From contig JACOST010000028.1 in assembly GCA_016178705.1 (NCBI GenBank), positions 68,951 to 132,950 of the forward strand: a stretch of DNA of 64,000 nt, read 5' to 3'. The notes beneath the pieces were generated by a model, which was not told the origin of the DNA, made no database searches, and was given only the letters and a program-made list of their open reading frames with translations. Both the position numbers and the translations under genes were made by a program. Origin of the DNA: Deltaproteobacteria bacterium (GTDB lineage: Bacteria > Desulfobacterota > Binatia > HRBIN30 > JACQVA1). This document shows, one piece after another, positions 36,427 to 40,622 of this stretch. The number at the start of each line of letters is the position of its first letter. Position 1 is the first letter of the stretch.

Positions 36427-36849
36427 TCAGCCGTGCTTCCAATATTGCGGCTTGCGCATGAACTGGCGCTGTATTTCGAGCAAATCTGGATCCGCCGAGT
36501 CGATGGCTTTTCCCGTGTCGGGGAATTTCGCCGCCAACGCGGCGACCCAGTCCGGATCGGAGTCCGGTACCTTGAAGTTGAAGCCCGCCCGCTTCATGCA
36601 AATGTCGAGGCTAGCCATGTGAAGCGCCAAGACGCGAGAGCGCGCGCGTTTGTCGTCGGCGGATTCGGATGCCGCCGCGGGCGCATGATCGGTAGCCGTG
36701 GGTGGCGACACTGGGTTGGATTTGTCGACCTTCGCGAGGCACTCGGTCAGCGCGGACTCAGCCGTGGGTGGCGGCGCCGCCGGTTGCGTACAACCCATCA
36801 CCAGGATTCCCAACGCGGCGAAACCGATAAAGCAAATCGACCGGATCAT
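36427..36849 (-). CDS. Putative lipoprotein, hypothetical
   Basis: A 140-residue secreted protein with lipobox LVMGC after an N-terminal hydrophobic helix. A Pro/Ala/Ser-rich linker is followed by a mostly helical region with CLAKVDKSNP and DICMKRAGFNFKVPD. Two cysteines in the mature part might pair. Of two adjacent ATGs the second (36849) has correct spacing from GGGAGGA. It lies 19 bp upstream of the CMD gene on the same strand. No family recognised. Confidence 0.7.
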   Translation of the reverse strand: MIRSICFIGFAALGILVMGCTQPAAPPPTAESALTECLAKVDKSNPVSPPTATDHAPAAASESADDKRARSRVLALHMASLDICMKRAGFNFKVPDSDPDWVAALAAKFPDTGKAIDSADPDLLEIQRQFMRKPQYWKHG

Positions 36850-37070
36850 CATTCCTCCCAATCAAATGGATGTGGTGCCTCGGCTCATAGCGCGTTTCTC
36901 TATAGCTGACTCGCGCTGCTTGTGGGAGTCGGGCGCGGACTCGCGATGCGGGTGGAGTTAGCCCTGATGTGACAGAACATGGGCGGTGGGGTCACGGTTT
37001 GCCCGCACCGGTTGCGCGGTGGGGGAGGGTTCCAACGTGCCATTCTTACCGTCATTGAGAATGAGGTTTT

Positions 37071-37142: not shown

Positions 37143-37314
37143 GGATTCGCCCACGGATCCACTTGTCACATAGGGTTAGGTCGTTGAAAAGGTGCGGCGC
37201 CCCCAGGGTGGCGGAGTCTGATTGGAGGGCGCCGCGTCGTCGGCGCGGCCAGTTGCCAACTGTCGCCTGCATTTGACGACCACGCCCTCGCTGGGCTACA
37301 GAGTGCCCACGATT

Positions 37315-37389
37315 ATGTCTCGCGGCGCTTTTCGATTTGCGTATTTTACCTTCCCCTGGTGGGCACCGGGGCGACGGAGGACTACGTGA
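37315..37389 (+). CDS. Aromatic-amino-acid leader peptide of the DAHP synthase attenuator
   Basis: A 24-codon peptide whose residues 6-16 read FRFAYFTFPWW: four Phe, one Tyr and two adjacent Trp in a 24-residue frame, ending TGA at 37387. It lies 83 bp upstream of the aroF start and ends 35 bp before an intrinsic terminator. This is the layout of Phe/Trp attenuation leaders, where charged tRNA levels decide ribosome position. The ribosome site upstream is weak. The composition is very unlikely by chance in this GC-rich genome, whose peptides are mostly Arg/Ala/Gly rich. Confidence 0.75.
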   Translation: MSRGAFRFAYFTFPWWAPGRRRTT

Positions 37390-37454
37390 ACGGCTAGCGC
37401 CGCGTTCAACTAGTAGAATCCGAAGCCCTGAGAGCAATCTCGGGGCTTTTTTTT
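37321..37454 (+). promoter_or_regulatory. Transcription attenuator of the aroF-type DAHP synthase gene
   Basis: The leader can fold in competing ways. CGCGGCGCT (37321-37329) pairs perfectly with AGCGCCGCG (37396-37404). CGGGGC (37367-37372), just after the Trp codons, can pair with GCCCTG (37425-37430), the 5' arm of the terminator, giving a plausible antiterminator. A ribosome stalled at the Phe/Tyr/Trp codons would cover the first arm and free the antiterminator, raising aroF expression when aromatic amino acids are scarce. The pairings are read by eye, without energy calculation. Confidence 0.65.
37424..37454 (+). terminator. Intrinsic terminator in the aroF leader
   Basis: A 10-bp stem, AGCCCTGAGA pairing with TCTCGGGGCT (one G-U pair), closes a GCAA tetraloop and runs into eight Ts (37447-37454). 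It ends 17 bp before the aroF ATG, so it must be regulated or aroF would not be made. Confidence 0.88.
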
Positions 37455-37471
37455 GGCGAAAGGCAAACGAC

Positions 37472-38545
37472 ATGAGCGAGAGAATAGAAAACGCGAACCT
37501 GGTGGACGTGCTGCCATTGACGCCACCGACCGCGGCGAAGGCGAAGCTGCCGCGCACGGAGCGAGTGACCGAGGTCGTGCTGCACGCGCGCCGAGCGATC
37601 CGTGACATCATCCACGGACGTGATCGGCTGCGATTACTCGCCGTCGTCGGCCCGTGCTCCATTCACGATCCCGAGGCGGCGCTCGACTACGCGCGGCGCC
37701 TCGTGCGGGTGGCCGACGCCGTTGGCGATCACGTCGTGGTGGTGATGCGGACGTATTTCGAGAAACCACGCACGACGATCGGGTGGAAGGGGTTGATCAA
37801 CGACCCCCATCTCGATGGTTCGTGCGACATCGCCGTCGGCTTGGAGTTGGCGCGCCGGATTCTGCTGGAGATCAACGAACTCGGCCTGCCGTGCGGCTAC
37901 GAAGCGCTCGATCCGGTGACGCCACAGTACATCGCCGACTTGTTGAGTTGGGCGGCCATCGGGGCGCGCACGACCGAGAGCCAAACCCATCGCGAGCTCG
38001 CCAGCGGCTTGTCGATGCCGGTCGGATTCAAGAACGGCACCGATGGCGGTCTCGAGGTGGCGCTTAACGCGATGATCTCTGCTCGCGCGCCGCATGCGTT
38101 TCTCGGCATCAACCCCGACGGCGTGACGTCGGTGGTCCGTACGGGGGGCAATCCCGATCGCCATATCGTGTTGCGTGGCGGCAGCGGCAAGCCTAACTAC
38201 GCACCCGCCGATGTGGCGCGAGCAGCGGCGCTGGTGGTCGACGAGGCGATCACGCGCCCGATCATGGTGGATTGCTCGCACGACAACTCGATGAAGGACC
38301 ACACCCGTCAGCCGCAAGTGTGCCGCGACGTGTTGGCGCAGGTGCGCGCCGGGCAGGAGCGCATCATGGGCGTGTTGCTCGAAAGCAATCTGAAGCCCGG
38401 CAAGCAGACGTGGAAGCCGAACGTGCCGCTGGCATACGGGGTTTCCATCACCGACGCCTGCATCGGTTGGGACGACACCGAAGCGCTGCTGTACGAGATC
38501 GCCGATGCAGTGAAGCGAACGCCTGTGCTGGCTGCCTCGATGTAG
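37472..38545 (+). CDS. aroF: 3-deoxy-7-phosphoheptulonate synthase (DAHP synthase, class I)
   Basis: A 357-residue enzyme condensing phosphoenolpyruvate and erythrose-4-phosphate, the first step of aromatic amino acid synthesis. Class I AroF/G/H hallmarks are VVGPCSIHDPEAALDYA, MRTYFEKPRTTIGWKGL, GARTTESQTHRELASGLSMPVGFKNGT and VDCSHDNSMKDH (metal site). Length equals the E. coli paralogues. ATG 37472 has AAAGG upstream. The leader with aromatic codons and a terminator argues for attenuation control. AroF, AroG and AroH cannot be told apart here, so the symbol stands for the class. Confidence 0.93.
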   Translation: MSERIENANLVDVLPLTPPTAAKAKLPRTERVTEVVLHARRAIRDIIHGRDRLRLLAVVGPCSIHDPEAALDYARRLVRVADAVGDHVVVVMRTYFEKPRTTIGWKGLINDPHLDGSCDIAVGLELARRILLEINELGLPCGYEALDPVTPQYIADLLSWAAIGARTTESQTHRELASGLSMPVGFKNGTDGGLEVALNAMISARAPHAFLGINPDGVTSVVRTGGNPDRHIVLRGGSGKPNYAPADVARAAALVVDEAITRPIMVDCSHDNSMKDHTRQPQVCRDVLAQVRAGQERIMGVLLESNLKPGKQTWKPNVPLAYGVSITDACIGWDDTEALLYEIADAVKRTPVLAASM

Positions 38546-38567: not shown

Positions 38568-40475
38568 CTACTTGACGTACCCGAGCGCCCGCAGTTTCTC
38601 CGTCGTCTCGTCGGTGAGTTCTGGCGCGTCGGTGCCGCGCAATCGCGTCGGTGGGGAATAGGGCCCATAGCTGGCGAGTGATGTGGGCGGGATCGACGCG
38701 ACCACCTCGGGCTGCAGCGCCTCGGTGAGCACGCGCCCCGGCATGTCGGTGGCGCGCGGCAGCCCGAGCAACGCGAGCAGCGTCGGTGTCACGTCGAGCA
38801 GCGTGGGTGCGGGCGCCAACTGCGCGCCCGCTCGGATGCTATAGCCACTCATCAGCAGGATGCCGTCGGGGGCGTGCTCGTGGCCCGACAGGCCGCCGCG
38901 CTCGTAATCCCAGCCGTGATCCGACACCAGGACCACTGTCGTGTGGTCGTCCGCTTGCGCAACATACTCAGCTAGCCAGCGATCGACGCGTTCGTAGTAG
39001 TGATCGACCACACCGCGGGCAAAGGGAAACAAATGGCTCACGTTGTCGATGCCGGGAAGATAGACAGCGAGGAAGTCGACGTGATCCTTGCGCAGCAGTT
39101 GTAGACCGGCGGCCGCGCTGAACGCGTCCGCGCCGTCAATCAAGCGGAAGGCGACCTGGTTTTTCGGCTTCGATTCCAAGTCCGCCCGCTCCGTCGCGCT
39201 GAGATCCGCGAAGAACGGTGACGCCAGGATGTCCCCCGATTCCAATTCTCCCGCGCCGATTCCCTCGGCCAACTCCGCCATCAACGAGTTCGGATACGTG
39301 ACCCCGAACGTGAGCGGATTGGTGTGGCCGAACCGCTTTTCCATGCGCGCGGCACGGTTCGGGTTGTTGTCGGACACCAGGAAGCCGTTCACCGGTTCGC
39401 TCGGCCAGGTTCCCCACCAGTTCACGACCGCCACGCGTCGCCCGCGCTCTGACAGGATGTTCCACAATGCTTTGACCCGCCGATGGCACGAGCTGATTGG
39501 AACTTGGACCAGCCATTCGCGGCGCAGCGCCTCCCTGACCAATGGGCGCATGCCGACGTACTGTGGAAGCAGGTTGAAGTTACTCAGTTGTTGGACGCCA
39601 CAGGAGAGCCCAGGGACCGACACCTCCATGAATCCATTAACCCCGTGTTGGTTTTCGCTCATGCCGGTGGCAATCGTGGTCCACAAGATCGGCGATAGCG
39701 TCGGCTTCATGCTGACGAGGGGCGCGGCGACGCCGTTACGCATCAGCGCAGCGAACGCCGGCAGCCGACCCTGCGCGACCAACGGGCGGATGCGTCGCCA
39801 GTCCGCGCCATCGAGCCCGATCACGAACACGCGCGCGCCCGCGGCGGATGCGGCGACGGGTGGGACGACCGCGACCGGTTCCGGCCGCGACGCTGGGCGC
39901 AGCGCCGCCACCAGCGCGACACCTGACAGCGCCAGCGCGACCGGCAGAATCCGGCTCACCGACGCGCGCCGCAGTCCCGTGGCGATGCGGCTTGTCATAG
40001 GTGCGGTTGCGAGCAGTGCCGCGAGCAGGGTTGCGATCTGAAATGGCAACTCGACGGTCTTCAACGGCGGTTGGCCGGCGAGATGAAAGCCGATCGCCAG
40101 GATTGCACCGCAGGTTGCGGCGGTGATGATCTCTGCGCTGGCACGGGCTGCAAGCGACGCCGCTGGCGCCGCTCGGCGATGCGAGGCATTGCGCCACGGC
40201 CCCACGCGGCCAACCACCCGGCTGGCGAGAGCGCCGAATGCGAAGAGCGCCGCATACACGGTGGCCACGGCGCCGGCGAAACGCAGACCGTTGCCCTCGA
40301 GAGCAATCGACTGATTGCGTTGCACGGTAAGATAGCCCGCCAGCAACCCGACCGTGGCCCCGACCCATGCCCACGCGGAGACGGCGAGCAGCCAGGCGTG
40401 AAGCGGGCGTGGCGAGGAGTGCACCGACCGCGTCACCGTTCGAAGCCAATGTGTGGACGTGTGCGGCGATTGCAT
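38568..40475 (-). CDS. Membrane-anchored alkaline-phosphatase-superfamily phosphodiesterase-like protein
   Basis: About 635 residues. Three to five membrane spans occupy roughly residues 25-190. The remainder is a type I phosphodiesterase/nucleotide pyrophosphatase fold: VIGLDGADWRRIRPLV carries the first metal Asp, TLSPILWTTIATG the nucleophile region (Thr/Ser), YLPGIDNVSHLF and VSDHGWDYERGGLSGHEHAPDG the remaining metal Asp/His ligands. It probably cleaves a phosphodiester or phosphonate in the periplasm. The C-terminus EKLRALGYV is common in such proteins. Start uncertain; an open frame extends to 40580. Confidence 0.83.
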   Translation of the reverse strand: MQSPHTSTHWLRTVTRSVHSSPRPLHAWLLAVSAWAWVGATVGLLAGYLTVQRNQSIALEGNGLRFAGAVATVYAALFAFGALASRVVGRVGPWRNASHRRAAPAASLAARASAEIITAATCGAILAIGFHLAGQPPLKTVELPFQIATLLAALLATAPMTSRIATGLRRASVSRILPVALALSGVALVAALRPASRPEPVAVVPPVAASAAGARVFVIGLDGADWRRIRPLVAQGRLPAFAALMRNGVAAPLVSMKPTLSPILWTTIATGMSENQHGVNGFMEVSVPGLSCGVQQLSNFNLLPQYVGMRPLVREALRREWLVQVPISSCHRRVKALWNILSERGRRVAVVNWWGTWPSEPVNGFLVSDNNPNRAARMEKRFGHTNPLTFGVTYPNSLMAELAEGIGAGELESGDILASPFFADLSATERADLESKPKNQVAFRLIDGADAFSAAAGLQLLRKDHVDFLAVYLPGIDNVSHLFPFARGVVDHYYERVDRWLAEYVAQADDHTTVVLVSDHGWDYERGGLSGHEHAPDGILLMSGYSIRAGAQLAPAPTLLDVTPTLLALLGLPRATDMPGRVLTEALQPEVVASIPPTSLASYGPYSPPTRLRGTDAPELTDETTEKLRALGYVK

Positions 40476-40622
40476 CCCGATCTCGGCGGCGCCGTCATAT
40501 AGAGTCACCGACGCCCGCGCAAACACTGCGGGGGGGAAAGAGTGGGTGCGACGGATGCGTGGCAGAGCAATGCCGAGCAAGGTCCCTTCTCCCCGAGGAG
40601 AGTGTCGACAAACGCGAAGACA

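Follow-up and report, generated by a model that had tools for sequence, protein, structure and literature searches.

The region upstream of aroF in a 6.1-Mb genome of the uncultured class Binatia carries what is very probably (our rough probability is 0.9) a classical ribosome-mediated transcription attenuator, which would sense charged tRNA-Phe, tRNA-Tyr, and tRNA-Trp and control aroF. The leader and aroF lie on contig C28 of this genome, within the window, i.e., the whole stretch of 64,000 nucleotides that was analysed. Three features of attenuators of the leader-peptide type were found: a short frame bearing a run of codons for the pathway's end products, an intrinsic terminator located after this frame and ahead of the structural gene, and a strand that can compete for the terminator's 5' arm; the dependence of the outcome on the position of the stalled ribosome was obtained by simulation only.

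The leader reading frame (37315–37389, forward strand, as are all elements of the leader) starts with ATG at 37315, ends with the stop codon at 37387–37389, and encodes a peptide of 24 amino acids, MSRGAFRFAYFTFPWWAPGRRRTT, which bears out the aromatic-rich frame of 24 codons proposed upstream of aroF in the earlier note. Its aromatic control codons (Phe6, Phe8, Tyr10, Phe11, Phe13, Trp15, and Trp16) occupy positions 37330–37362. Segment 2, the antiterminator strand CGGGGC (37367–37372), is also located within the frame. It pairs with GCCCTG (37425–37430) of segment 3 (37422–37433), the 5' arm of the terminator, and so the antiterminator pairing suspected just after the Trp codons does exist. 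The intrinsic terminator with its run of eight Ts spans 37422–37454; the stem (37422–37449) has 12 pairs and a 4-nt loop. It had been described as a 10-bp GC stem followed by eight Ts; the T run (37447–37454), ending 17 bp before aroF, was confirmed, but 6 of the 12 pairs of the stem are G-C. The leader RNA as a whole is far more stable than its shuffled versions (z = −5.84), as found in the folding-energy check which the earlier note had suggested.

The proposed regulated gene, aroF (37472–38545, forward strand, ATG at 37472), encodes a class-I DAHP synthase. Its product scored above the cut-offs of both TIGR00034 and NF009395, in agreement with the initial call. The probable neighbour genes at 36427–36861 and 38568–40580 are on the opposite strand, and aroF is therefore probably the sole gene of its transcript. 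No class-II DAHP synthase was found in this genome. Two other PF00793 genes are present: a second DAHP-synthase-like gene (L003, G000:C13), which is below the NCBIfam family cut-offs, and a KDO-8-phosphate synthase gene (L002, G000:C14). The detector described below found no leader in the stretch searched before L003, nor, in the same genome, before trpE, a pabB-like gene, or the prephenate dehydratase gene.

Conservation was analysed in two sets of loci. The class set contained 116 aroF-like loci (114 distinct and two repeats; 116 of the 148 class genomes had a match), and the collection set contained 80 aroF loci from a genome-collection scan, among which L037 and L038 also belong to Binatia. 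Less than 180 nt of upstream sequence was present at one locus (L195). A strict detector, requiring a terminator, a short aromatic-bearing frame, and a strand with complementarity to the arm of the terminator, was positive at 11/116 class loci and 3/80 collection loci. One match, L063 (Pseudanabaena), was judged to be due to chance; its 42-aa frame ends 197 nt before aroF. L011, with a weak T tract, and L120 were added by eye in the class, as were L061 and L079, both missed by the strict detector, outside it. Overall, an aromatic leader with a terminator precedes aroF in 13 of the 114 distinct class loci and in four of the 80 collection loci. According to the record labels, the latter belong to MAGs of Myxococcales (L047), Latescibacterota (L050), Polyangiaceae (L061), and a betaproteobacterium (L079), one genome each. 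These 13 Binatia and four other-labelled loci keep aromatic codons, an antiterminator strand, and a terminator, which is the conservation in relatives that the earlier note had asked about. The other 101 distinct class loci, including 10 within the same aroF clade, have no such leader.

Shuffling of the 196 upstream regions gave no detector matches among 19,600 sequences at a threshold of at least five aromatic residues and six at a threshold of at least four. With a control residue set (Gly/Ala/Pro, at least five residues), 10 class loci passed the detector, nine of them leader loci, because the codons of segment 2 and of the tail are GC-rich. Searched against the 148 class genomes, an RNA model of 11 Binatia leaders plus L047 recovered 13 leaders of aroF. 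Eleven of these were members of the model, and the remaining two were L121 (E 7.2e-17) and L120 (E 2.2e-9). At E <= 0.1, 77 of the 148 genomes had a match, mostly to the terminator part alone. Elsewhere in the phylum, matches at E <= 1e-4 occurred in 38 of 297 genomes, and 31 of the 42 matches covered only part of the model. Of 12 such stretches retrieved, 11 were inspected.

A FastTree reconstruction of 191 aroF proteins placed most of the leader rows (14 of 17) together in a clade that has 40 rows and a local support of 99. On this tree, the leader label required seven changes, compared to a mean of 16.5 in 500 shuffles, none of which was that low. The 26 leader-less rows of the clade are 13 Nitrospira-type records, 12 Binatia (two repeats), and L098. 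A single origin of the leader with later losses is likely, though not proved, since the inner nodes of the clade have support of only 68–73. The Nitrospira-type aroF genes (L034–L036, L039–L046, L056, L097) are placed inside the Binatia clade, and no such leader was detected at these loci; the genes were possibly transferred and the leader lost.

Sixteen of the 17 leaders are complete; the contig of L120 begins inside the leader. Because L006, L008, and L011 are almost copies of one another, counts over these leaders are not fully independent. Of the 216 residues between codon 4 and segment 2, 96 are aromatic, and from segment 2 to the end of the peptide only 1 of 122. Phe, Tyr, and Trp are all present in 15 of the 16 complete leaders, with L050, which has no Trp, as the exception. 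Synonymous codons are both in use (TTT 26, TTC 16, TAC 13, and TAT 11 in 14 leaders). The leader peptide of the nearest relative (L005, aroF 79% identical) is MISTSRYAFAYFSFPWWVPGPLESA, and that of the betaproteobacterial MAG is MNRAYAFWFGFYHFPQPLAEGLS. Besides aromatic residues, Thr/Ser and Pro are recurrent in the Binatia leaders, and the peptide tails beyond the aromatic run vary from leader to leader.

The position of the antiterminator strand is almost fixed relative to the control codons. The last aromatic codon starts 6–10 nt before segment 2 in 13 of the 16 leaders, and from the end of segment 2 to the stop codon there are 6–22 nt in all 16 (14 nt in the window). The strand itself varies in sequence, e.g., CAGGGCT, CTCCCGGG, or CGCTGGCGG, each variant being complementary to the terminator arm of its own leader. 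The lone duplex of segments 2 and 3 is weak evidence because the strands are short and GC-rich: compared with chance, its p values ranged from 0.003 to 0.58 (0.19 in the window) and were below 0.05 in 4 of 14 leaders. Segments 2 and 3 co-vary across the leaders. Own segment 3 outpaired swapped ones, and the observed mean was reached by 2 of 20,000 permutations for 14 leaders, by 46 of 20,000 when L061 and L079 were left out, and by 274 of 20,000 for the 10 Binatia leaders alone; the best site was re-chosen at every swap.

Two further pairings were considered as conserved parts of the leader. The first, a 9-bp pairing of 37321–37329 with 37396–37404 reported previously, was rejected as such: it is present in the minimum-energy fold, but pairings this long are common in shuffled sequences (p = 0.199), and it is probably not conserved. 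The nearest relative has at most 5 bp there, and only 2 of 16 leaders reached p <= 0.05, using other strands. The second is a possible protector (1:2) hairpin. In the window, segment 1 (CCCCTGGTG, 37353–37361) is tentatively its 5' arm, with the partner CACCGGGG at 37364–37371, and the hairpin would cover the Pro-Trp-Trp codons; the local fold has −12.4 kcal/mol, and the sequestering of segment 2 has p = 0.33 compared with shuffles. Such hairpins were seen in many local folds, with p <= 0.05 for the sequestering of segment 2 in only 2 of 16 leaders.

We propose the following mechanism. Transcription would start at the leader ATG or immediately upstream of it, and a ribosome would trail the RNA polymerase. 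With ample charged tRNAs, the ribosome would clear the aromatic run and cover segment 2, a position covered by a ribosome on the tail of the frame because segment 2 lies inside the frame. Segment 3 would then pair with segment 4, and transcription would terminate at the T run. When an aromatic aminoacyl-tRNA is scarce in the cell, the ribosome would stall upstream of segment 2, segment 2 would pair with segment 3, no terminator would form, and aroF would be transcribed. The 3'-most Trp codons would weigh less, since they lie at the margin of the ribosome footprint.

This scheme was simulated by folding the transcript as far as segment 3 with the ribosome-covered bases held unpaired, under six settings (three leading edges, +8, +11, and +13, by two masking modes). 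Since the folds are equilibrium ones and real transcription is a race, the results are to be read as predictions. In all 16 leaders and all six settings, the mean expected number of pairs between segments 2 and 3 was more than twice as high for a ribosome at the aromatic codons as at later codons. In the window, with the edge at +11, about six pairs were predicted at the Phe/Tyr codons (6 at Phe13), 4.0 at Trp15, 0.1–0.5 at Trp16, and 0.0 beyond. The E. coli trpL and pheL leaders, used as positive controls, showed textbook switching with the same script. If every upstream partner of segment 3 was included in the count, its pairing past the run returned in many leaders to 5–7 of 9, and in L079 to 9/9; at the stop codon (edge +11) it was 0.07–0.80 vs. 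0 in E. coli. The pairings regained downstream of the run involve bases other than segment 2. With footprint-only masking, pairs between segments 2 and 3 reappeared near the stop codon in L007 and L013. In the ribosome-free fold, the number of these pairs was 0.0 in the window, L005, L011, L061, and both E. coli leaders, about 1.5 in L008 and L121, and 4.3–9.8 in 10 of the 16 leaders.

The drop at the Trp codons leaves room for a narrower reading, possible although on balance unlikely, in which attenuation is real and only Phe and Tyr matter, the 3'-most Trp codons being retained through descent or because the hairpin needs them. In 11 of the 16 leaders, the last Trp codon begins 6–10 nt upstream of segment 2, where the modelled pairs drop, and in Corynebacterium glutamicum the aroR leader has Tyr codons, yet Tyr supply had no effect according to the accessible text of PMC11802643. 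Against this reading, Trp is kept in all but one of the complete leaders, and in L007, L013, L018, L121, L061, and L079 a Trp codon is located 18–30 nt before segment 2, well inside the responsive stretch. A more elaborate version of the attenuator, which we consider doubtful, is that one leader reads three aromatic tRNAs graded by codon position, is closed mainly by a ribosome on the in-frame antiterminator strand, and fails open in many cases when untranslated. In this version, full switching would come from the Phe/Tyr codons, mostly 14–31 nt before the antiterminator strand, and partial switching from the 3'-most Trp codons. The model predicts the open state without translation for 10 of 16 leaders, the opposite of E. 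coli trp/phe; the leader of the window is predicted to stay closed, and failing open does not apply there, because its ribosome-free fold gives no pairs between segments 2 and 3.

The recurrence of Thr/Ser and Pro in the Binatia leaders would also suit nascent-chain arrest, of which TnaC is an example: a peptide motif YFT-[F/W]-P-W would stall the ribosome with a free aromatic amino acid or metabolite, and the same hairpins would relay the signal. We find this very improbable, since the distant leaders L050 (YRYFYFYFYYAF), L061 (RRFFWFGYW), and L079 (YAFWFGFYHFP) retain aromatic content without the motif, and since aromatic codons fill, and then stop at, the stretch where a stall frees segment 2, as expected for tRNA sensing. 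Least credible is a small functional protein followed by an ordinary terminator, with aroF on its own promoter in a non-regulatory arrangement: it is common for a terminator to follow a small gene ahead of the next one, and the looser detector did fire in a few shuffles, but the fall in aromatic residues at segment 2, the tails that differ between leaders, and the co-variation of segments 2 and 3 argue against it.

The start of the leader transcript was estimated from promoter-like sites. In the window, such a site (TTGACG, 18 nt, TACAGA; 37273–37302) ends 12 nt upstream of the leader start codon, with p = 0.023 compared with shuffles; a stricter generic promoter scan of the window gave no promoter-like site. 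The best site ends 7–12 nt before the leader start in all but one (L013, 18 nt) of the 12 complete leaders that precede aroF in Binatia. These sites consist of TTGAC or TTGCC, a spacer of 16–18 nt, and mostly TAnnnn, and p was at or below 0.023 in nine of the 12, the exceptions being L011 (0.06), L012 (0.39), and L009 (0.52). L009, like L050, has a better match to a ribosome-binding site instead (5 of 6). The short distance between these sites and the leader start suggests that the leader mRNAs are leaderless, and the transcript in the window probably begins a few nucleotides before the leader ATG, i.e., is leaderless or nearly so.

Other leaders were observed in the same genome and in its relatives. 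In the genome of the window, a Leu-rich leader, MNARSHNALGLLLLGLLLPCPPAASGGA, with two terminator-like hairpins precedes a leuA-type gene (L246, G000:C8), and a promoter-like TTGACA-17-TACGAA is located 9 nt before the leader ATG. This leuA-type gene is below the TIGR00973 cut-off and is followed by a leuA over it. The Leu-rich leader is a probable second attenuator of this genome. In Binatia genus g17, leuA is preceded by a Leu-rich leader, e.g., MKFNLHLGLLLILALMGAHAAGVEVQA, and a terminator (L213–L218; weak matches of the aroF leader RNA model in six genomes, three of which were inspected). In another Binatia genome (L243, G102:C123), a Trp-containing frame, MNCRRISVGWMTWRWHADASACAPVL, with a promoter-like site and a terminator is located before trpE (TIGR00564, 565.8 bits vs. 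a cut-off of 517.7). Short Leu-rich frames with terminators were also found at weak leader-model matches in other classes of the phylum (L234 and L236), before frames which resemble isopropylmalate synthase by eye; L236 has, in addition, an overlapping frame with five aromatic residues.

At the gathering thresholds, the leader was not assigned to an Rfam 15 family. The scores for Rfam Phe_leader (RF01859) and Trp_leader (RF00513) were 21 bits vs. a gathering threshold of 55 and 12.8 bits vs. 41, respectively, and neither a T-box nor any other Rfam 15 family reached its gathering threshold in the window and 15 related loci. Attenuation by leader peptides is a classic mechanism, and the E. coli leaders are among the systems most like this one. 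pheL-pheA has a Phe-rich leader, an antiterminator, a terminator, and the same ribosome-position behaviour; it differs in having Phe only and pheA as its target. trpL-trpE shares Trp codons and competing hairpins, with Trp as the sole control. In both, the antiterminator strand begins just past the stop codon (from frame nt 50, with the stop ending at 48, in pheL; from 47, with the stop ending at 45, in trpL), whereas in the aroF leaders studied here segment 2 is within the frame. Sensing of three amino acids of a shared pathway by a single leader is known from E. coli ilvGMEDA, for Ile, Val, and Leu, i.e., branched-chain and not aromatic amino acids.

The earlier note had considered a leader mixing all three aromatic residues outside enterobacteria to be a notable case. 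The mixture holds, but attenuation of aroF has a reported precedent in Corynebacterium and a proposed one in Acholeplasma. The aroR-aroF attenuator of C. glutamicum was reportedly described by Neshat et al. in 2014. According to the accessible text of two sources, it has a Phe-Tyr-Phe leader with attenuation before the DAHP synthase gene, and aroF expression is enhanced under Phe limitation, Tyr being without effect (PMC11802643, PMC4046766). Compared by these descriptions only, the two systems share an aromatic-codon leader peptide and attenuation ahead of the DAHP synthase gene; the difference is in the Phe-Tyr-Phe content, with Trp not mentioned in the text accessible, and in the phylum. 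The Acholeplasma uORFC-13-1 motif, as far as the accessible part of its source describes it, is a frame upstream of aroF that encodes Phe, with an intrinsic terminator adjoining it and with proposed Phe sensing; unlike the leaders studied here, it has at least one Phe and a ribosome binding site, with no Tyr/Trp sensing proposed there (PMC8632094). Leader frames at the 5' end of the transcript, which we only infer here, are described in the accessible text for Sinorhizobium meliloti trpL (PMC7298713) and several Streptomyces lividans leaders (PMC8079986), for other amino acids and in other lineages. For Actinobacteria, according to the available part of their paper, Seliverstov et al. (2005) saw no RNA structure conserved upstream of operons for Phe or Tyr (PMC1262725). 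Among the matches listed, in a search that covered the subscription literature thinly, we recognised neither a Phe/Tyr/Trp leader before aroF nor attenuation in Binatia. Relative to the literature examined, in part as excerpts, three features are apparently new: the triple aromatic content, the presence of such a leader in Binatia, and the in-frame location of the antiterminator strand.

For genomes rich in GC, these leaders provide a search rule, namely that aromatic codons end where the antiterminator strand starts, and the weighting of codons by position becomes testable by reporter. E. coli pools the signals of the aromatic end products through several feedback-inhibited DAHP synthases and repressors. 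Our data suggest that members of the uncultured class Binatia may control the first reaction of aromatic biosynthesis by translation-coupled attenuation, and that one leader may pool the signals of all three aromatic end products.
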